In this document: in pieces, positions 38,760 to 63,247 of the stretch
Layout: each line of letters starts with the position of its first letter
Position numbering within the stretch: position 1 is the first letter of the stretch
DNA from: Tenacibaculum sp.
Lineage (GTDB): Bacteria > Bacteroidota > Bacteroidia > Flavobacteriales > Flavobacteriaceae
DNA length: 64,000 nucleotides
Assembly: GCA_020629275.1 (NCBI GenBank)
Contig: JAHDDQ010000009.1
Coordinates: 1 to 64,000, forward strand
Direction: 5' to 3'
The notes under the pieces: generated by a model
What the model saw: the letters and a program-made list of their open reading frames with translations, nothing else
Database searches by the model: none
Told to the model about the DNA's origin: nothing
Made by a program: the position numbers and the translations under genes

Positions 38760-41700
38760 CTATTTTACAACAAAACGTTGCGATTTACTTGTAAATTCAT
38801 TCTGTAGATTGATTAAGTATATTCCTGTTTTTAATTTATCGGTAGGAATATAACCTTCTTCAAGCTTTCCTCTGCTTAATACTTGTCCAAGCATATTTAC
38901 TATTGTATATGAAGTATTTGATAATTCCTTTTGCGATGAAGTAATCACTTTTAATGATTCTCCTTTAGTTACAGGATTTGGTGCCAATCGTAACGACGCA
39001 AATAATTCCTCGTCTTCATCTCCTAAAACATCTAATCTAGCTCCAAACTCAACAACTGCTCTTGAACTACTTGCACATGAAGTTTCGTAGATTTTCACAT
39101 TAGAAAATGTTGAATTATTACCAGAACCTGCATCATTATCATTAATAAATACTAATCTATCCATAACTCCTGTGTAAGAATCTCCTACTGGAATAACATA
39201 TGTTTTTGTTCCACTAGTGTAATCATCGAAGTTTGTAACTCCATAATTTTGTGTTCCGTATACTTTAAAATACCTACTTGAAGTTAGAGTTCCATCATTT
39301 TCAAATCCTACTCCATGAATTTCTCCTTCTGAAGTACTACTAAACTCAAATTCAATTACCGTATTAGCTGTAACTGTATAATTAAAGTTTATTTCTTTCC
39401 ATGTATTATTTGTTAACGTTAGCGTGTTTCCTCCTCCAGATACAGCTGAATTTCCTGCACTATCTTGGTTGGAGAAAGAACTAATTGTATAATCATTAAA
39501 GTTTAAACTAGCACAACCAGGATCTGGATTATTTCCTCCTGCAGTAACTTTAATATTATCAATTGCTATATCACTAGACCAACCATTGCCAGTTGTTCCT
39601 ACAAACCTTAAGCTTACGTCTCCTCCAATATATGCATTTAAGTTTACTGAAATAGCATTCCATTGATTCCCTTTATTTCCTGAATCTGTCCATAAATTTG
39701 TCCAGTTATTACCATCTGTAGAAGCTTGTAATGTTAAAGAACCAACATCATTACCAAACATATGATTACTGAATGAAATTGTAGCAGAAGACTCACTAGA
39801 AAGATCGAAACAAGGACTTACTAAAATTGCAGTAGCATTCGCTCCTATTTGCCCTAGGCTATTATTACTGGAAGCTTCTAAAAACATATAGAAACTACCG
39901 TCGGTAGCCGAACTCGGACCTGTATTATTAGACGGAGTTCCGTTAGCATCTCTTACCCAATTACCATCATCTCCTGTTGCTTGTGTCCATCCATCATTCG
40001 TTTCGAAGCTTTCACTGTAAGGTAATGACTGACATGAACTTCCTCCACCTCCTGTAGTTGTAAACGTTACAGAGGAACTAAAAGCTGAATTACTACTTGT
40101 ACATTGACTTCTAACTTGAACCTCATATTGTGTGGTAGCGGATAAACCAGATAATGTTGTTGACGTTCCTGAAATATTATTTGCAGTCCATGAAGATGTT
40201 CCTACTTCACGATAACGAACTCTATATGTTGCGCCTGAAACTGAATTCCATGCTATTGATGCTCCAGAATTTGATATACCAGATACTGTAACTCCAGTAG
40301 GAACTGTAGCTGTACAAGAGACTGCTCCACTTATCGTAAAATTAGTGTTAGAAATATCAAAGAAAATATGATTACTTCCTTTAACCATAATTCTATTTTG
40401 ACTTCCTGTTTGATTAGGAACCACAATATCATGAGATCCATCATTAGCAACTCCACTTGCTAGTATTATTGGGTATGTATCTCCTCCATCTGTAGATAAT
40501 AAGATATCTACATTTGCTGTATTCACTCCATTTCCAGTAGTCCCAGCTACATTCCATGTTACAGTTTGTGTTGATCCTGCTGCGTATGTTACATTACTAT
40601 TTGGTGAATTAACCACAAAAGGTCCAGCATTTGCATTTACTGTCACTCTCATATCATCGCTATCGTTCGTTCCGCCTCCTGCTCTATTATCTCGTACAGT
40701 AAGTCTAAAATTAAGACTTCTGTTTACATTAGGCACTGCTTCCCATCTCCAAGAAGTATTTCCTGTTTTAATGGTTTCAATTCTCGGAAAATATCTTGAA
40801 GGACTAGCCGAAGGTGGATATGATCTAAAAGCGACTCCTGATGTTGCGGTAACGCTAGGGTTTGTTGTACTAGCATCATTCTCATCAACTTGTTCCCATG
40901 TATATGTTAATGCATCAGAAGCATCAGCATCAGTAGCTGAACCTGTTAACAAAAAGGGAGTTGCTCTTGGTATTGTGTAATTACTTCCTGCATTTGCTAC
41001 AGGCACATTGTTTCCTGTTGCTGTGTTTGTTTGACATGATGTTGTTTTAATGTAATTTGTTATTTGTTGTATTGTAATTGCATGGAAATACGGATCACTA
41101 TTTTGTTGCACATCTGTAGCGCCAGTAATACCTGCATATCCCATAATTGTTGAACCACTTCCTGGCTCCATTTGAACATTTCTTCCTTCATTTCCTCCGA
41201 ATGTCCATGTATGATTTCCTCCAAATTGATGTCCGATTTCATGAGATACATAATCTACATCAAAAATTTCTCCTTCAGGAACTGTAGTTGAACTGAACCC
41301 ACTACCTTTTCTTCCATTCACACAAACACAACCTATACAACCTGCATTCCCATTGTTTGATGCTCTATGAAATAAATGTCCTATATCATAATTCGCTTCT
41401 CCTATTCTATTGGTTAATGTTGATTGTAATTGAGAATTTAAATTACCTCCATATGGATCTGAACTTGCATTTGTATAAATTACATCATCCGTATTTGGAA
41501 TAACAATCATGGTTACATTAAAATCAGATTCGTAAAGACCGTTTACTCTGGTCATTGTTGCATTAATTGCTGCTAATACTTGTGCTACTGTTCCACCATG
41601 ATAAGAACCATATTCTCCTGTTGTGGAAATAGCTATACGGTAAGTTCTCAAGATACCATCATCTGCATTACGATGCGCATGTCCAGATGAATGAGCTTCT

Positions 41701-42239
41701 GTTTTACTCTTAGGTTCTACAGTACAATTAAGACCTCCAATACGTTTTGGCTTGTCTGCCCTTTTGTACACGGAGTACGTATTGGAATCCTTAGAGTAAG
41801 ACTCTATAAAAACAGTTGCTTTATCTGCTCCTAAACGCATACTTTGCAATCCTTTTGGTGAGATACTAAATCGTATTCTATCTGTAGGATTATCTACTCC
41901 AATACCTGCATAAGATTTAATATTAGGATATCTAGCAGATAAATCCGGATGTAATACAGCTGCTTCAAAAACATGAAACCTCTCCATAACTCCATCTGCG
42001 TTAGGAAAGGATACTATTACTCTTGATTTTCTTGCAGTTCCTCTATCTGGAGCTCCATTTAATGCCTTTTTCAGTGCAACTACATCTAGCTTATAAATTG
42101 CTTTATCGGGTAGACTTTTTGCTAATGCTGATTTACTAATGTTTACTTTAGAAGTATTTTGTTTTTTCCAAAATTTACCGTCTTGCGCAAATAAAACGGT
42201 ACTAATCATAAACATGATTAAAGGTAATCTAGTTTTCAT
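38760..42239 (-). CDS. Secreted reprolysin-type zinc metalloprotease with T9SS sorting domain
   Basis: The 1159-residue protein has a signal peptide (residues 1-19) and a propeptide-like region to about residue 190. The zincin domain (about residues 195-400) has HEIGHQFGGNH (His333, Glu334, His337, His343) and the Met-turn in TIMGYAG. Further domains are PKD/Ig-like (412-535), FN3 (641-730), a MAM-like jelly roll (736-900) and a second beta-sandwich (906-1055). The T9SS type A tail (from about 1083, LRLAPNPVTKGESL to FVVK) sends it out through the GldKLMN machine. A six-C run sits four bases before the ATG. Confidence 0.92.
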   Translation of the reverse strand: MKTRLPLIMFMISTVLFAQDGKFWKKQNTSKVNISKSALAKSLPDKAIYKLDVVALKKALNGAPDRGTARKSRVIVSFPNADGVMERFHVFEAAVLHPDLSARYPNIKSYAGIGVDNPTDRIRFSISPKGLQSMRLGADKATVFIESYSKDSNTYSVYKRADKPKRIGGLNCTVEPKSKTEAHSSGHAHRNADDGILRTYRIAISTTGEYGSYHGGTVAQVLAAINATMTRVNGLYESDFNVTMIVIPNTDDVIYTNASSDPYGGNLNSQLQSTLTNRIGEANYDIGHLFHRASNNGNAGCIGCVCVNGRKGSGFSSTTVPEGEIFDVDYVSHEIGHQFGGNHTWTFGGNEGRNVQMEPGSGSTIMGYAGITGATDVQQNSDPYFHAITIQQITNYIKTTSCQTNTATGNNVPVANAGSNYTIPRATPFLLTGSATDADASDALTYTWEQVDENDASTTNPSVTATSGVAFRSYPPSASPSRYFPRIETIKTGNTSWRWEAVPNVNRSLNFRLTVRDNRAGGGTNDSDDMRVTVNANAGPFVVNSPNSNVTYAAGSTQTVTWNVAGTTGNGVNTANVDILLSTDGGDTYPIILASGVANDGSHDIVVPNQTGSQNRIMVKGSNHIFFDISNTNFTISGAVSCTATVPTGVTVSGISNSGASIAWNSVSGATYRVRYREVGTSSWTANNISGTSTTLSGLSATTQYEVQVRSQCTSSNSAFSSSVTFTTTGGGGSSCQSLPYSESFETNDGWTQATGDDGNWVRDANGTPSNNTGPSSATDGSFYMFLEASSNNSLGQIGANATAILVSPCFDLSSESSATISFSNHMFGNDVGSLTLQASTDGNNWTNLWTDSGNKGNQWNAISVNLNAYIGGDVSLRFVGTTGNGWSSDIAIDNIKVTAGGNNPDPGCASLNFNDYTISSFSNQDSAGNSAVSGGGNTLTLTNNTWKEINFNYTVTANTVIEFEFSSTSEGEIHGVGFENDGTLTSSRYFKVYGTQNYGVTNFDDYTSGTKTYVIPVGDSYTGVMDRLVFINDNDAGSGNNSTFSNVKIYETSCASSSRAVVEFGARLDVLGDEDEELFASLRLAPNPVTKGESLKVITSSQKELSNTSYTIVNMLGQVLSRGKLEEGYIPTDKLKTGIYLINLQNEFTSKSQRFVVK

Positions 42240-54126: not shown

Positions 54127-54909
54127 ATGTTAGATTTTATTGATTTTTCGTTTTTAGATATTCTCGATATTATTCTTGTAGCTGTACTACTGTATTATAT
54201 TTATAAGTTGCTGAAAGGTACTGTAGCTATAAATATCGTTGTTGGTATAACAGTAATATTTTTAATTTGGAAAATAACGCAAGCATTACGTATGGAGATG
54301 CTAAGTGGAATTTTAGGATACCTACTATCTGGTGGTGTAATTGCTTTAATTATTGTTTTTCAACAAGAAATAAGAAAGTTCTTATTAATGATTGGAACAA
54401 CAAATTTTTCTACTAGACGAGGTTTTTTAAACCAATTGAAATTCTTACAATCTGAAATTAATACAGATACAGATGTAGAATCTATAGTGAATTCGTGCGT
54501 GCATTTATCTACAACGAAAACTGGTGCCTTAATTGTTATCGAAAGAACAAATAAATTGGATTTTCTAGTGAATTCAGGAGATAACATGAATGCTTTAGTA
54601 AATGAAGCTATTATCGAAAGTATTTTTTATAAGAACAGTCCATTACATGATGGAGCAACAATAATTAGAGATAATTATATTATCGCTACACGTGTGATAT
54701 TACCTGTTTCTGATAATTCAAAAATTCCTGCTCGTTTCGGGTTACGTCACAGGGCTGCTATTGGTATTGCAGAAAAAACTGATGCGGTGTGTATCTTAGT
54801 ATCTGAAGAAACAGGAGAAATATCTTATATTAAAGATGCTGAATTTGTACTTTATAAAGATATAACCGAACTTATTGAAAAGGTTAAAAAAGACCTAACT
54901 AAATACTAA
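54127..54909 (+). CDS. cdaA: Diadenylate cyclase CdaA
   Basis: The 260-residue protein has three N-terminal membrane helices (within residues 12-80) and a DAC domain making c-di-AMP from two ATP. Conserved parts are HDGATIIRDNYIIATRVILPVS (the DGA motif) and RFGLRHRAAIGIAEKTDAVCILVSEETGEIS (RHR motif). It belongs to the folP-cdaA neighbourhood of Bacteroidota. It ends at a strong bidirectional terminator. c-di-AMP controls osmolyte and wall balance. Confidence 0.95.
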   Translation: MLDFIDFSFLDILDIILVAVLLYYIYKLLKGTVAINIVVGITVIFLIWKITQALRMEMLSGILGYLLSGGVIALIIVFQQEIRKFLLMIGTTNFSTRRGFLNQLKFLQSEINTDTDVESIVNSCVHLSTTKTGALIVIERTNKLDFLVNSGDNMNALVNEAIIESIFYKNSPLHDGATIIRDNYIIATRVILPVSDNSKIPARFGLRHRAAIGIAEKTDAVCILVSEETGEISYIKDAEFVLYKDITELIEKVKKDLTKY

Positions 54910-54996: not shown

Positions 54997-57900
54997 CTAC
55001 TTAACGATAATTTTCTTTGTTTCTAGTGTTCCAGTATTCACATTTCTAACTTCTAGAATATACATTCCTTTAGCCAAATCATTCACAGAAATAAAAGTGC
55101 TTTCTTCGTTATTAATTGTTTTACTTCTAACAACAAGTCCTGTTAAATCTATCAATCTTATCTCAACAGTACTTGGAACATTTGTTCTTGTTACACCAGT
55201 ATTAAATACTGATACTGCAAAGTAATCAGAAGTTGGGTTAGGACCTACCGATACATTCATAACTTCTTGTTTCGGTTTTGCTCTTTCTGCAACTGGAGTG
55301 TTTCCAAAGAAAAAACCGTACTCTGCATTTGCTAAAGCAACTTCAATTTGTGCCCAGCTTCTGTGGTAACGTTGTGTAAATTCTTGACCTGAATTATATG
55401 CAGATTCTAACCTTGCATACTCTGGATCGTTTTTATATCCTGAACGAATATCAATGAATTTAACACCTGGCTTTATCTCGTCGCCATTTGGCATTGTACC
55501 TCTATAATTGTTAGGTACATAAACTTCCTCTTCAAAAATACGTTTAAAATCACCTCTACTCTCTGGAGCAGAAACACCTTTATCATCTCTGTACGTTCTC
55601 CACATTCTATCTAACACTTCTTTAGCTAAATCTCTAGAAGCAACATCTAAGGTTTCGTACTTCTCTGTAGCTGCTGCATAATAAATTAATGCTTTTGCCA
55701 TCGATGCAGCTACACCTAGATCTTTACCATAATCTATTACTGTTACGCTAAGACCATTGTTTGCTTGAGGATTCGCTGGATTCCAGGTATTTGGCTGACC
55801 ACTCCATTCTAATGTCGCTGGAATTTCAAAATCATCTTCTCCAATTAATTTCACGATATCTTTCACCCAGTTTGTCCAGTTTTCTATTAAACGCTTAGCC
55901 ATAGGATCGTTGGTAATGTAATAGTATTCCGCAACACGCTCCATAGACCATGCTTGCCAACCAAACCAAGTTCCACTTCCTGGATCATGATATACAGGGT
56001 CGTTATCGTAAGCCATATCATAAAATGTAGATTTTTCTGAAGGATATGTACTATAATTTCCATTCCAACTATTGGTTGCTCCACCAGCTATTGCTCCTTC
56101 TTTAGATTGTAACCAAGTATAAAACTCCATTTGTCTTTTTAAACTTTCTGTCCAATCTTTTTCTCCATTTTTAGATTTAGGCTTCAACGAGTTTACATTA
56201 GTTAACGCATAGGCAGCAACTGGGTTTTGATACCCAAAATGACAATGGCTTGAACTTATTCTAAATGCCCATGGTGCAGATGTATCTACTGCTCCACCCC
56301 AAGATATATACCATGACATTAAATAATGTGCACTGTCATAACCTGAACCAGCTCCAGTTGTTTCGCTTTGTACCCCTAATGGTTTAAAATATTTATCAAA
56401 CATTGCTAGTCGTAGGTAATCTCCCATTTTTACAGTTTTATCTAAATTGGTAACACCTATACCCTGCTCTTTAGCATATTCTTGTGCCCAATACATTGCT
56501 TGAACAACTCTTGCGTCTGCGTCAGGAGCACTTGTATACCTCCATTGTTTAGCATAATTTTGATCTTGAATAAAGATTGGAAGGAAACCTTCTTCTGCAC
56601 TTCCCCACTTAAAACCTTCCCATGACGGATGCGGAACAGTCTCGTATACAGACTCTTGCTCTCCTCTTTGAAAAGTATTAATATACGATGGCGTACTTAC
56701 TCCATCTCCTCTATTCCCGTAGCCATAAAAATTATCATTATCTAATAACCAGTGCATTTGATAAACATCTGCTCCATAGGTAGCCGTTAAATCCGAAGAA
56801 ACTGGATCTACCCCTACTGGTGCTGAAAAATTCAATGGTGATGGATAATCGCTTGGTAACGGAAATTCTGGCGCGTAAGAAGCAGGACTTGCAGGATTAT
56901 AAGCTCCATTAGTCGGTTGATCTGCTTTTGTTGGAATAATAAACTGTTCTATTTTATTCCATACATTATTTAACGGTTTCCAATCTTTATTGATTCTTCC
57001 ATTCATTACTTCCAACCAAATCCAATATGAATATAGTTCACTAGTTGACTCATGCCCATGATCTGGAGCTTCAACAAGTAATGTTTCTATTGAATGATGC
57101 GGAGAACCATCGGCGCTGAAGTAACCATTTGCTGGATCGTAAAATTCTTGTCTGATTTCATTAAATCGATCTAAATATTCGTTTCCAGTTGGAGGATTAA
57201 TAACAATATCATCTTGTACTATTATTTTTTGTGTTTTCTTACTTTCACCTCCATTTCCGTCAGTTACAGTTAATTCAGCAATATACTCTCCTGTTGTGTA
57301 TACATTCGAAACTGTAATTCCGTTTCCTACATTTCCGTCTCCAAAATCCCAGTTATACGTTAAAACATCGCCATCTAAATCTGAAGATGAGGTAGCATTA
57401 AAGCTTACTTCTAAAGGCGAAATCCCTGATATTGGCGTTGCTGAAAAATCTGCTACTGGGTCGTTATTTGTCGTCCCTCCACAGTTAGGTAATGCACTAG
57501 AATTACTAAAGTAAATAGTAAAATCTGATGTTTTTGAGACCAACACAAAATTTCCTTCATCTAAAGTAGCCCAATATGAACCATCTAGATTTGGAAAACC
57601 AGAACCTGTAATTGTGATCGCTGGTTGAACTTGATTAAAACTCTGAGTTATTTTTGGCTTTAGATCATTCCACCAAGATGGTGCTCCATTATTGGTTAGT
57701 ATTGAAAATTGATACAGACCATTATTCGTTGAATCCCAATTAATAGTGAAATTGTTAACATTCTCAAGACTTGGTCCACCAGCACCTAATACATAAGCAT
57801 TTTTGAACTGCGAACTTATTGATGGTAATGCACTACTTGAAGGTGTATTGAACGTACAACTGTTTCTAAGAATATTGGCTGTATTTAAAGGCGCTGCACT

Positions 57901-60525
57901 ACAATTTGGCGGAGTTGCCGACGTACTAAAATATATTGTAAATCCACCAGTTTTAGAAACCAACACAAAGTTTCCTTGATCAATAGTAGCCCAATATGAA
58001 CCGTCTAAATTTGGAAATCCTGAATCTGAGATTGTTATTGCTGGTTGAGTAGCATTAAAATTCTGAGTTACCTTAGGCTTGAAATCATTCCACCATGAAG
58101 GAACACCATTATTAGTATTCATCGAAAATTGATATAGGCCGTTGTTAGCTAAATCCCAATTAATAGTAAAATTCGCTACATTACTTAAATCTGGTCCGCC
58201 AGTACCCAAAACATATATGTTTGTAAATGGTGCATTAATACTTGGCAAAGCATTATTTACAGGAGTACTAAATGTACAATCTGTTTCCTGTCCTACTTCA
58301 TTTCTAATAACTTCAATACTGTTTGAAAGATCAAACTCACCAGATAAATTTGCTATGTTAGCATTAGTTGACAATCCTGTGATTGCTCCGTTGTAACTAA
58401 CATTATATATAAAGCAAATTCCAGAACCCGTCTCATCGAAATTCACATCTTCTGGTGAAGCCGGTAATCCTAATATTTTTCCTACAGCATCAGTAACAAT
58501 CCATTTTTGCGTAGCTCCAATCGTACCAGTTAATGTAATCCCTGAAACGTTATCAGCTATTCCATCTCCTATGGTAAAAATAAATGGTCCGCCTGTTAAA
58601 ACACCTCCATCTACTACTGGTGGCGTAATATCTCCTTGGTTAGGTTCTTTTCCTCCCACTAGTTCCCCATTAACGTATACAGGAACATTTTGAGCAATCT
58701 TTAAATTATTAGAAAGGTCTTTGTAAGAAAAATCATTATCTGCGTTCCAAGCACTTGCTGGTGCTGTTGGTGGCAAACCAACTCTTAACTGAATTTCTCT
58801 TCTGTATTCACCTTGTCCACCTGGAAAAGGCATATCAGAAGAACTAACAGCAACCTCTGCATAATAAATATTATTATTTATATCCCAAGGCTTAAGAGTG
58901 TTACTAGTAATAGTACCTGCTCCTCGTGCGGTTAATTGATAATCACTTGCTGAAAAACCTGCTGCTATACCTTCTGATATATTAACAAAATACCTTGCTT
59001 TCATGGTATTTGGAACTCTAGCTGGCCAAGCCGATCTGTTATTCAACCATATCGCTACCTCAGTAAACTTCGATTGATCGTTATTCAATTTAACTTCATT
59101 TATAAACTCTATACCTGGTGTCTCTGGCTGCGGAAAATCTGGTAAAGGAGCTCCTCCATATTCCATCACCATACGCGCTAAAACTCCTTGGTAACAAGCA
59201 TTATAATCTGTAGCTACTTCATTTGCTTGAAAATCTGTTCTGTTATCTACGAATACATCGTTAGGTTTTCCTGGACCACCTATTAATGCTCCCCAAAGTG
59301 TATGTCTTGAGTCAGTTGGTACTGCTTCACTACGTGCCCAGCTAGCGTGTTGACCTCTGTGATGCGGTCTGTCTGGTGGATTAACTCCATAACCTGTAAC
59401 TAAACTTCTATTTAAAGGGTTGTCTCCTAACACATAGTTTACCTGTGAAACTGCAAAATTAAAGTACTTACTCTTATTAGATGTTGCTACTTTATCACTA
59501 TAAATTAAAGCTGTTAATGAAGCATTCATTGCGTGTCTTGAAGAACCCCATTGTGTTAAATGAGCTTGTCCTCCTGGAGAGTAGTTTATCCCTCCTCCAA
59601 CTTGCCAAAAATCTAAATGACGTTCAGCATCTTGTTTGTATGTGTTTTTTCCTGTTATGATGCTTAATAGAACCATATTTCCATACGATTTATCATCCCA
59701 CACAAAACTCCATAAAAAATCTGGTTTACTGTATAACGCTTCAGCTTTAGCTAAATATGTATCATCTCCAGTTGCTTTGTATAACCATAACGCTCCCCAA
59801 ACTAATTCATCTTGATATCCTCCTGACGAATAGGTTCCGGTTGCTGGTATATTTCCATCTTCATTGTATTTACCTCTATAGGTATCTCCAAATTCATATA
59901 ATTCCTTTGCGTGCCTTAATAATGTTGCACTGTAAGATGGATCTGAGTCTTTGAATATAATACTTGCTGATGCCAAAGCGGCAGCTGTTTCGCATGCAAC
60001 TTCTGTTCCTGGATTTGACGCTGTAATTTTATATGATTTGCGCTGCCCATACTGAGGATGCACATCTATCATTTCTGGCGACATCCAAAAATTATGGTCC
60101 TGAGATTTAGAGTCTGCTATTTGTGCATAAAACTCATTTGGTGAAGGATGACATTTAATAAAGTAGTCGGTTACCCATTTAATGTTTCTCTTAAAAGCTG
60201 ATGATTGTTGTGCCAAATCATATCCATCTTTGTATTCCAAATAGCCCCAATTTAGAGCTGTTACTGAAAATGCCATTGGAAATCCAAATTTAACATGATC
60301 TCCTGCATCGTGCCAACCTCCTGTGAGGTCCAAACCAACATCTTGCCCATCATTCACACCAGCGTTGGATCGCCAACTTATACGATTCCAATCGGGTAGA
60401 ACGCCAGACTGTTGTGTTTCATAAAATAATAATGATTTTTGTAGTGCTTCTGCATAATTATGTTGTGCAAAAAGCTGAGTTGAAACTGTGAGAAGTATTC
60501 CCACGAAAAAATGTTTAAGTTTCAT
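54997..60525 (-). CDS. Multimodular secreted cellulase: GH9, CBM3c-like, unknown modules, PKD, GH48, T9SS tail
   Basis: The 1842-residue protein carries a signal peptide (1-21) and GH9 (about 22-455, GGWHDAGDHVKFG with Asp73/Asp76; probable acid Glu436 in DFQANEVATDYNA). A CBM3c-like domain (473-610), an unassigned beta domain (640-748) and two tandem 126-residue modules follow, each starting and ending with Cys (750-875, 890-1015). Next are PKD (1022-1105), GH48 (1113-1745; APDHGHESTSE with probable acid Glu1159, and TSAPDADAR) and a T9SS type A tail (1756-1842). GH9 cuts inside chains and GH48 acts from chain ends, so one polypeptide should attack crystalline cellulose. The layout recalls Caldicellulosiruptor CelA. 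Confidence 0.94.
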   Translation of the reverse strand: MKLKHFFVGILLTVSTQLFAQHNYAEALQKSLLFYETQQSGVLPDWNRISWRSNAGVNDGQDVGLDLTGGWHDAGDHVKFGFPMAFSVTALNWGYLEYKDGYDLAQQSSAFKRNIKWVTDYFIKCHPSPNEFYAQIADSKSQDHNFWMSPEMIDVHPQYGQRKSYKITASNPGTEVACETAAALASASIIFKDSDPSYSATLLRHAKELYEFGDTYRGKYNEDGNIPATGTYSSGGYQDELVWGALWLYKATGDDTYLAKAEALYSKPDFLWSFVWDDKSYGNMVLLSIITGKNTYKQDAERHLDFWQVGGGINYSPGGQAHLTQWGSSRHAMNASLTALIYSDKVATSNKSKYFNFAVSQVNYVLGDNPLNRSLVTGYGVNPPDRPHHRGQHASWARSEAVPTDSRHTLWGALIGGPGKPNDVFVDNRTDFQANEVATDYNACYQGVLARMVMEYGGAPLPDFPQPETPGIEFINEVKLNNDQSKFTEVAIWLNNRSAWPARVPNTMKARYFVNISEGIAAGFSASDYQLTARGAGTITSNTLKPWDINNNIYYAEVAVSSSDMPFPGGQGEYRREIQLRVGLPPTAPASAWNADNDFSYKDLSNNLKIAQNVPVYVNGELVGGKEPNQGDITPPVVDGGVLTGGPFIFTIGDGIADNVSGITLTGTIGATQKWIVTDAVGKILGLPASPEDVNFDETGSGICFIYNVSYNGAITGLSTNANIANLSGEFDLSNSIEVIRNEVGQETDCTFSTPVNNALPSINAPFTNIYVLGTGGPDLSNVANFTINWDLANNGLYQFSMNTNNGVPSWWNDFKPKVTQNFNATQPAITISDSGFPNLDGSYWATIDQGNFVLVSKTGGFTIYFSTSATPPNCSAAPLNTANILRNSCTFNTPSSSALPSISSQFKNAYVLGAGGPSLENVNNFTINWDSTNNGLYQFSILTNNGAPSWWNDLKPKITQSFNQVQPAITITGSGFPNLDGSYWATLDEGNFVLVSKTSDFTIYFSNSSALPNCGGTTNNDPVADFSATPISGISPLEVSFNATSSSDLDGDVLTYNWDFGDGNVGNGITVSNVYTTGEYIAELTVTDGNGGESKKTQKIIVQDDIVINPPTGNEYLDRFNEIRQEFYDPANGYFSADGSPHHSIETLLVEAPDHGHESTSELYSYWIWLEVMNGRINKDWKPLNNVWNKIEQFIIPTKADQPTNGAYNPASPASYAPEFPLPSDYPSPLNFSAPVGVDPVSSDLTATYGADVYQMHWLLDNDNFYGYGNRGDGVSTPSYINTFQRGEQESVYETVPHPSWEGFKWGSAEEGFLPIFIQDQNYAKQWRYTSAPDADARVVQAMYWAQEYAKEQGIGVTNLDKTVKMGDYLRLAMFDKYFKPLGVQSETTGAGSGYDSAHYLMSWYISWGGAVDTSAPWAFRISSSHCHFGYQNPVAAYALTNVNSLKPKSKNGEKDWTESLKRQMEFYTWLQSKEGAIAGGATNSWNGNYSTYPSEKSTFYDMAYDNDPVYHDPGSGTWFGWQAWSMERVAEYYYITNDPMAKRLIENWTNWVKDIVKLIGEDDFEIPATLEWSGQPNTWNPANPQANNGLSVTVIDYGKDLGVAASMAKALIYYAAATEKYETLDVASRDLAKEVLDRMWRTYRDDKGVSAPESRGDFKRIFEEEVYVPNNYRGTMPNGDEIKPGVKFIDIRSGYKNDPEYARLESAYNSGQEFTQRYHRSWAQIEVALANAEYGFFFGNTPVAERAKPKQEVMNVSVGPNPTSDYFAVSVFNTGVTRTNVPSTVEIRLIDLTGLVVRSKTINNEESTFISVNDLAKGMYILEVRNVNTGTLETKKIIVK
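57481..58278 (-). repeat. Two tandem 126-residue modules inside the cellulase
   Basis: Module A (57901-58278) and module B (57481-57858) encode residues 750-875 and 890-1015. They share NFTINWD, NNGLYQFS, WWNDxKPK, SGFPNLDGSYWAT, GNFVLVSKT and FTIYFS, and each is bounded by cysteines (CTF at the start, PNC at the end). The high aromatic content suggests carbohydrate binding. Confidence 0.85.
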
Positions 60526-61483: not shown

Positions 61484-63247
61484 TTATGAAAGCTCTGCAC
61501 TAAATTGTTTTTCATATAGATTTTTATAGTAACCATCGAAATTTAATAAATCGAGATGACTTCCTTGTTCTACTATTTTACCCTTATCCATTACGATAAT
61601 TTTATCTGCATTTTTAATAGTAGCTAATCGATGTGCTATTACTATTGAAGTTCTTCCTTTCGTAATTTTTTCTGTAGCATATTGTATCATTTGTTCTGAC
61701 TCAGTATCTACTGAAGATGTAGCTTCATCTAAAATTAAAATGCTAGGTTTACTAACATAAGCCCTTAAGAATGCTATTAACTGACGTTGGCCCGAAGACA
61801 ACATTGCGCCTCGTTCTTTGACTCTATAATTGTAGCCATTAGGCAAGCTCTCAATAAAGTCGTGTATGCCTATTTGTTTTGCGGCTTCTTTAACTTTTTC
61901 TAATGAAATTGTTGTGTCATTAAGTGTAATATTATTCAATATAGTATCTGAAAATAGAAATACATCTTGTAACACTACTGCAACTTGTTTTCGCAATGAA
62001 CCTAGATCATAATCTTCTACCAATACTCCGTCTACTAAAATTTGCCCACTATTTATTTCATAAAAGCGACTAATTAAATTAATTATTGTTGATTTCCCTG
62101 CTCCTGTTGAGCCTACAATTGCTATTGTTTGTCCATTAGTTGCCTTTAGAGAAATTCCTTTTAATACTTCTTCATCTTCTATGTAGCTAAAACGAACATT
62201 TTTAAACTCTATATCGCCTTGTAATTGTTCTGCTAATTTTGTTCCTGATTTATTGATAGAGCTTTCAGTATCCATGACCTTAAATACACGTTCACCAGAA
62301 ACAATACCCATTTGCAATTGATTAAACTTATCTGCTATTTGTCGTAAAGGTCTAAATAACATTTGAGCCATTTGTATGAATCCAATAATTGCGCCAACAG
62401 TTACACCATCGTTCTCCATTACTTGTAATCCTCCATACCATACTATTAAACCTATTGCGATAGATGATAATATTTCAGCAATAGGAAAAAAAATAGAATA
62501 ATACCAAACCGTTTTAACATGAGCATTCTTGTGTTTGTTATTTATTTCTTTGAAATTATCGTACTCTATCTTTTCCCTATTAAACAGTTGTACAATCTTC
62601 ATTCCTGTAACTCGTTCTTGAACAAAGCCATTTAAATTAGCTACTTGATTTCGTACGTCTTGGAATGTTTTTTTTATAGCAATTTGGAAAAGTTTTGTAG
62701 CATAAATTAAGATCGGTAGTACTGCTAATGCTATTAATGCAAGTTTCCAATTGATAACCAACATTACCACAACAACGACTAGCATTTTAAGTATGTCGCT
62801 TACAATCATGAAAACACCCTGAGAGAAAAAGTTAGCAATGGTTTCAATGTCTGAAACAACTCTTGTTACCAATCTACCAACAGAAGTATTGTCGAAATAT
62901 GACATTTTAAATTCTAAAATAGCATTGAAAATTTTTGTTCGAATATCTTTTATTATATGCTGTCCTACCCAATTTGCATAATATATAAAGCTAAATTGTA
63001 ATATCACCTGTATAATTAACACAGCTACCATAACTATGGTATAGTACATTAATCTCGTTACATCTTTATTTACCGTAAAATCGTCTACAGCTTTTAATAA
63101 AACTACTGGACTTGCTGCTGAGAATATGGCTAGTAATATTGTAGATATTGTAGCAATCCAAAATTCCGTTCGGTATTTTTTTGCAAAACTCATTAGTCTT
63201 GTAAAAACCTTCAAATCAAATGCGTTTCCTGTATTATCTTTACTCAC
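61484..63247 (-). CDS. ABC transporter with fused permease and ATPase (MsbA/MdlB-type exporter)
   Basis: The 587-residue half-transporter has six membrane helices in residues 25-310 and one nucleotide-binding domain with Walker A GSTGAGKST, Q-loop LQDVFLFSD, signature LSSGQRQL and Walker B ILILDEATSSVD. There is no N-terminal C39 peptidase domain, so it is not the processor of the GG-leader peptides. It begins four bases after truA and likely shares its transcript. The cargo (lipid A, drug or lipid) is unknown. Confidence 0.93.
   Translation of the reverse strand: MSKDNTGNAFDLKVFTRLMSFAKKYRTEFWIATISTILLAIFSAASPVVLLKAVDDFTVNKDVTRLMYYTIVMVAVLIIQVILQFSFIYYANWVGQHIIKDIRTKIFNAILEFKMSYFDNTSVGRLVTRVVSDIETIANFFSQGVFMIVSDILKMLVVVVVMLVINWKLALIALAVLPILIYATKLFQIAIKKTFQDVRNQVANLNGFVQERVTGMKIVQLFNREKIEYDNFKEINNKHKNAHVKTVWYYSIFFPIAEILSSIAIGLIVWYGGLQVMENDGVTVGAIIGFIQMAQMLFRPLRQIADKFNQLQMGIVSGERVFKVMDTESSINKSGTKLAEQLQGDIEFKNVRFSYIEDEEVLKGISLKATNGQTIAIVGSTGAGKSTIINLISRFYEINSGQILVDGVLVEDYDLGSLRKQVAVVLQDVFLFSDTILNNITLNDTTISLEKVKEAAKQIGIHDFIESLPNGYNYRVKERGAMLSSGQRQLIAFLRAYVSKPSILILDEATSSVDTESEQMIQYATEKITKGRTSIVIAHRLATIKNADKIIVMDKGKIVEQGSHLDLLNFDGYYKNLYEKQFSAELS

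Follow-up and report, generated by a model that had tools for sequence, protein, structure and literature searches.

The comparison system for the gene considered here is CelA (CbCel9A/Cel48A) of Caldicellulosiruptor bescii, as set out in the accessible part of its description (PMC3865294). The other point of reference is UKD, a module of the enzyme CelAly and the founder of family CBM113. According to the available portion of the paper (PMC13235733), UKD binds both insoluble cellulose (PASC and Avicel) and alginate; cellulose binding is tied to Y50, Y63 and Y64, and R36, K100 and K110, which are described as conserved, are suggested for alginate binding. GH48 has been tabulated in three Fulvivirga strains, where the section at hand attributes it to chitin (PMC10113389). 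In the accessible parts of the open-licence literature on GH48, CelA, Aquimarina and Tenacibaculum, no description of GH9-GH48 fusions in Bacteroidota or of GH9 exchange was found.

The window, a stretch of 64,000 nucleotides from a Tenacibaculum genome, carries on its minus strand an open frame that runs from an ATG at position 60525 to a stop at 54997 and encodes 1842 amino acids in the order GH9-CBM3c-X-CBM113-CBM113-PKD-GH48-CTD. The plus-strand reading of 54997-60525 contains 129 stops. The order of GH9, CBM3, PKD, GH48 and the tail was read by hmmscan against Pfam, and the C-terminal tail was also read by TIGR04183, where it scores above the model's cut-off. A preliminary description had proposed, from the letters of the DNA, a fusion of GH9, CBM3c, PKD, GH48 and a T9SS tail on a CelA-like plan; both the fusion and the domain order were recovered, the models for GH9, GH48, CBM3 and T9SS sorting all matched, and the catalytic residues are kept. 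It is highly probable that the gene encodes a secreted two-engine cellulase, that its plan is separate from that of CelA, and that its GH9-CBM3c cassette has been replaced recurrently on a GH48 chassis.

An assembly join, the artefact that the preliminary description had raised, is an unlikely source of the long frame, because a distinct near-copy (P0002, 1858 aa, with a GH48 region 99% identical) sits on a 129-kb contig and a closely similar fused gene adjoins the same ABC transporter gene in two congeners with single-contig genomes (G467 and G535). The proposed comparison of composition with the neighbours gave a GC3 of 21.5 for the gene against 20.5 +/- 3.8 for the 35 other ORFs of the window.

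Two catalytic domains and the modules around them

The protein begins with a putative signal peptide, judged by eye (residues 1-21; 60463..60525, minus strand, as are all parts of the gene). The GH9 domain follows at residues 24-449 (59179..60456; Pfam E 1.6e-143), and CBM3c, the second half of the exchangeable cassette, at residues 458-629 (58639..59154; Pfam CBM3 at 479-558, E 9.3e-8). Residues 22-627 align with the nearly complete GH9-CBM3c chain of T. fusca E4 (1js4), the best solved match for this unit. D55, D58 and E424 of E4, which we take to be its catalytic residues, correspond to D73, D76 and E436. With its full-length Pfam match and its Asp/Asp/Glu set, the first domain is assigned to GH9. 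The only CBM3 stretch that Pfam finds in the protein lies directly after GH9 and aligns with the CBM of E4, and by this position and alignment it is classed in subfamily c.

The GH48 domain (residues 1117-1740; 55306..57177; Pfam E 2.6e-286) was aligned over its full length with 4el8/4l0g and with CelS (8zu1). Its best PDB matches are 4el8 and 4l0g, presumably from C. bescii, and 6d5d, presumably also from Caldicellulosiruptor. The acidic motif residues E1152, E1163, D1335 and D1337, which we take to be the functional ones of GH48, are all retained, and the domain is placed in GH48 by these residues and the full-length Pfam match. Across the 88 fused proteins examined, the seven catalytic or motif positions are unchanged in every one. 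Judged by its residues, the window protein would be expected to act as a cellulase.

Between the two catalytic domains, the preliminary description had placed modules of unknown kind. Two of them match PDB 9KVN, the UKD of CelAly (E 2.3e-40), and are 73% identical to each other: CBM113 copy 1 (residues 749-878; 57892..58281) and copy 2 (residues 888-1014; 57484..57864). One Ig-like domain is still without a name. The aromatic plane Y50, Y63, Y64 of UKD is Y, W, W in each of the two copies. Among the 143 CBM113 copies of fused proteins in the matches listed (near-copies included), the three plane positions are aromatic in 141, 143 and 143, and position 63 is W in 125. The match to the founder structure and this plane place both modules in CBM113. 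At the alginate-linked positions, the window copies have A/N for R36, I/L for K100 and K/K for K110, so the residue set associated with the dual binding of the CelAly UKD appears to be incomplete in both. R36 is present in 27, K100 in 8 and K110 in 111 of the 143 copies; by this count R36 and K100 are mostly not conserved, contrary to the account in the available portion of PMC13235733. The set was collected with the window CBM113 and the window GH48 as queries and, being restricted to the matches listed, is biased towards both. The same residue trend is seen where the partner is an unfused GH9, an unfused GH48 or another domain, and it is therefore not special to the fusions. The window copies are predicted to be directed at cellulose and to bind alginate weakly. 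No CBM113 was found outside the cellulase gene in the window's genome (89% complete).

Module X (residues 640-745; 58291..58608) gave no match in a Pfam search. An AlphaFold2 model, confident at a mean pLDDT of 92.9, predicts an Ig-like beta-sandwich. Since a PKD pair occupies the same slot in P0003, module X looks like a spacer. In the relative L015, module X occurs in up to five repeats, and it stands where others carry PKD. A PKD domain (residues 1020-1101; 57223..57468; Pfam E 1.5e-17) precedes GH48.

The protein ends in a T9SS type A sorting tail (residues 1762-1840; 55006..55242; Por_Secre_tail E 7e-10). The genome, 89% complete, contains SprA, by which the presence of T9SS was judged, and with this sorting domain the protein is classed as a putative T9SS type A cargo. 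The genome also has one match to PF00150 and one other GH9 (G000:C85:3713-5044), which carries a CelD_N domain and a T9SS tail; six of the seven congeners also have a second GH9 that is about as divergent. Elsewhere in the window (38760-42239), a reprolysin-like metallopeptidase with MAM and fn3 domains also has a T9SS tail.

Rarity, relatives and a conserved site

GH48 was found in 8 of 146 genus genomes, 5 of 397 family genomes and 3 of 395 phylum genomes drawn, with the window's own counted each time, and the rarity of GH48 in Bacteroidota that had been stated beforehand thus holds. The idea that the fusion is singular is not supported: of 411 GH48 matches found, 120 were listed, and 63 of these contain GH9 and GH48 in one protein, with GH9 first in 61. 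Within the same matches listed, CBM113 is also present in 51 of the 63 fusions, and the named hosts include Aquimarina, Tenacibaculum, Flammeovirga and Reichenbachiella. The reversed order, GH48 before GH9, was seen in P0086 (named from Victivallales) and P0064. In Saccharicrinis aurantiacus, one frame of 1731 residues (L029:5709-10901) holds two GH48 domains.

The gene lies between a cdaA-like diadenylate cyclase gene (54127..54909, plus strand) and an ABC transporter gene (61484..63247, minus strand). The ABC gene adjoins the fused gene in six of the seven other GH48-bearing congeners, and the stretch read for the remaining one (L110) contains no ABC gene. In L108 and L109, cdaA stands on the other side of the gene, as in the window. 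Outside the GH48-bearing set, cdaA was matched in 38 other congener genomes, and the locus was read in 29 of these; the ABC gene lies close to cdaA (within ~3.8 kb) in 26 and not in 3. A single conserved site is therefore where the cellulase gene was either gained or lost.

How the two halves came to share a frame can be approached from a GH48 tree of 107 rows, a quick tree with SH-aLRT support only that was built, like the other trees, under LG+G4. At least 14 changes between the fused and unfused states are needed on it, and GH9 and GH48 have, on this reading of the tree, often been joined or split. One origin, compatible with our main model, is that two neighbouring genes were joined and that the CBM113 pair is the scar, with one copy from each parent. 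In L022, a GH9-CBM3c-PKD3-CBM113-CTD gene is adjacent to a CBM113-PKD-GH48-CTD gene, and L013 is arranged similarly; neighbouring genes for GH9 and GH48 are likewise present in L027 (Fulvivirga), L031 (Labilibaculum), L029 (Saccharicrinis), L036 and L040 (Herpetosiphon). However, the split forms L013, L019 and L022 are nested inside the fused clade and may be later fissions, and the CBM113 copies do not sort with the partners that such a joining predicts. We give this origin somewhat less than an even chance.

Beside the fused or split cellulase genes of Aquimarina lie genes for giant proteins (L006:12823-17901, L012:12844-17901 and L022:10489-17481). They give weak matches, above cut-off, to cytochrome c, MauG-like and RoxA-like haem models and contain PKD; that of L022 also has CBM3 and a T9SS tail. 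Separately, CBM113 occurs in two PF03067 proteins, P0146 and P0168. Together, the haem-match giants and the CBM113-bearing PF03067 proteins may act as an extracellular redox pair on cellulose.

GH9-CBM3c as a probable exchangeable cassette

After the removal of near-copies, 59 fused proteins remain for a comparison of the two halves. Their GH48 domains are at least 88% identical in 187 pairs, and in 90 of these the GH9 domains are less than 70% identical (146 of 315 such pairs before the reduction). Identity of GH9 alone, from which the types were defined, yields three main types and one single. Type 1, that of the window, is found in 23 of the 59 proteins and is 51-63% identical to the rest: 51-57% to type 2, with GH48 identities between the same types of up to 100%, and 55-63% to type 3, with GH48 up to 89%. 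Because types 2 and 3 intergrade (61-75% between them, 65-98% inside type 3), the split that we regard as firm in these sequences is that of type 1 against the rest.

On the bootstrapped GH48 tree, the GH9 types together need 12 changes against a possible 3, and the number falls to 8 when branches with either support below 99 are collapsed. For type 1 by itself, 10 changes are needed against a possible 1, and 9 are forced by the starred branches. AU tests on GH48 reject a single clade of type 1 (p 3e-6), of type 2 (4e-8) and of type 3 (2e-4). Pairwise identities correlate at 0.88 for the GH48 halves, 0.90 for the GH9 halves and 0.79 for GH9 versus CBM3c; for GH9 versus GH48 the value is 0.18-0.27. 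Well-supported sister groups with unlike GH9 types are L020/P0008, P0006/P0019, P0028/P0031 and L007/P0011, and inside Tenacibaculum L108-L109 have a well-supported sister placement and a different GH9 type. The GH9 and GH48 halves of these proteins have different histories.

One pair gives sharp borders. P0012 (Aquimarina spongiae) and P0011 are identical at 31 of 33 positions in residues 1-33 and at 1568 of 1585 from 641 to the end; over residues 41-630, the figure is 302 of 590 (51% in GH9-CBM3c against 99% over 1585 residues). The breakpoints lie near the GH9 start and where CBM3c meets PKD. The drop in identity also spans GH9-CBM3c, with softer edges, in P0014/P0008, L106/L108, P0006/P0019 and P0028/P0031. 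Any one mosaic may be an assembly chimera. In Tenacibaculum, the genomes of L106 and L108 are each a single contig; the two loci have the same ABC neighbour and are 84% identical in the ABC gene, 91% in GH48 and 57% in GH9. In Aquimarina, L007 and L020 can be aligned on both sides of the gene, and the GH9 part aligns only in patches. Flanks that identify GH9 as the replaced part come only from Tenacibaculum (L108 and L109 against L104-L107) and this one Aquimarina pair. Between the window gene and L104-L107, all of type 1, no exchange was seen (GH48 81-82%, GH9 85-86%). In L111, GH5 stands in place of GH9, and the GH48 is 81% identical to that of the window. This GH5-GH48 fusion (L111:4108-9318) contains X and CBM113 and adjoins a separate GH9-CBM3c gene. 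A donor GH9 was not seen in most of the 11 genomes; a second strong GH9 is present only in those of L011 and L022. The GH48 chassis stays stable, and GH9-CBM3c behaves like a cassette exchanged on it.

The same mosaic would be expected if two or three ancestral fused paralogues had carried different GH9 types, one had been kept per genome, and the GH48 halves had been homogenised by gene conversion; in some proteins the CBM113 copies have indeed been homogenised (100% identity in P0032). We consider this improbable. Two fused genes were never seen in one genome, ten of 11 genomes having one and that of L022 a split pair, and all eight GH48-bearing genus genomes have a single GH48. Moreover, P0011/P0012 would still require a crossover at the CBM3c/PKD junction, and L104-L107 and L108-L109 adjoin the same ABC gene.

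Replacement of the cassette is accordingly the reading that we prefer. The Tenacibaculum cellulase would be exported by Sec and then by T9SS, and its two CBM113 modules would hold it on cellulose, where GH9-CBM3c, as a processive endo-cutter, would open chains and GH48 would run from the chain ends and release cellobiose, probably in synergy. The GH48-bearing part and the tail would form a stable chassis at a fixed Tenacibaculum locus, on which GH9-CBM3c would have been replaced repeatedly by recombination, presumably homologous, with borders near the GH9 start and the CBM3c/PKD junction. It also seems fairly probable that the marine Bacteroidota GH48 fusions as a whole are a natural plug-in enzyme, in which a locus-stable GH48-CBM113-T9SS chassis receives an endo front cassette (several GH9 types, or GH5 in L111/P0024) that recombination at fixed borders swaps among species, so that combinatorial cellulases arise with no cellulosome. 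Some marine Bacteroidota do possess GH48, fused to an endoglucanase, which is a plausible route to crystalline cellulose at sea. Since natural pairs such as P0011/P0012 differ almost only in GH9-CBM3c, they would show how the endo partner affects GH48, with no need for designed chimeras.

Relation to CelA and other described enzymes

In the GH48 tree, the marine fusions fall inside a Bacteroidota-rich clade; Clostridia, Caldicellulosiruptor, Chloroflexi and Actinobacteria are placed together in another. The Caldicellulosiruptor row is a GH10-GH48 protein that stands in for CelA, whose own domains lie outside all trees. One clade of the marine GH48s and this row is rejected (p-AU 9e-5, for a group chosen after inspection of the tree). 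The transfer of a CelA-type gene from Caldicellulosiruptor-like bacteria with later remodelling is very improbable, for although the module order is the same and the best GH48 PDB matches are those that we take to be from Caldicellulosiruptor, the GH48 clade is a separate one by the stand-in tested and, for GH9-CBM3c, T. fusca E4 is the best match of known structure. Of the two origins offered beforehand, convergence therefore fits better than remodelling after transfer, and the CelA-like plan looks to have arisen in Bacteroidota apart from Caldicellulosiruptor CelA, as judged with CelA's own domains outside the trees. The CelA plan would then have had more than one origin, here with another binding module. 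Nor does the window protein classify as a CelA orthologue: its GH48 clade is apart from the GH10-GH48 stand-in, and one CBM3 stretch, after GH9, is found rather than two CBM3b between the catalytic domains.

As far as the accessible part of the CelA description goes, both proteins have GH9-CBM3c at the N-terminus, GH48 at the C-terminus and cellulose binders between them. Unlike CelA with its two CBM3b, the window protein has two CBM113, X and PKD; the CBM3b slots are filled by unrelated modules, as had been proposed, and these include, as assigned here, a different cellulose binder. It also differs in its T9SS tail and in the clade of its GH48 (tested with the stand-in). CelAly of Aquimarina sp. 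2-A2 is likewise a multimodular marine flavobacterial enzyme with CBM113 (UKD) and a T9SS tail; according to the available portion of its description (PMC13235733), it joins GH5 to the alginate lyase PL31, where the window protein joins GH9 to GH48, and two of its three alginate-linked CBM113 residues differ in the window copies. T. fusca Cel9A (E4, 1js4) has the GH9-CBM3c unit in common with the window protein, whereas its solved chain is without GH48 and a T9SS tail. The GH9-...-GH48 fusions of the databases, several of them labelled 'glycoside hydrolase family 48 protein', belong to the same family and mostly share the plan; they vary in how many spacers they have and of which kind (PKD or X), in how many CBM113 they carry and where, and in the type of GH9.
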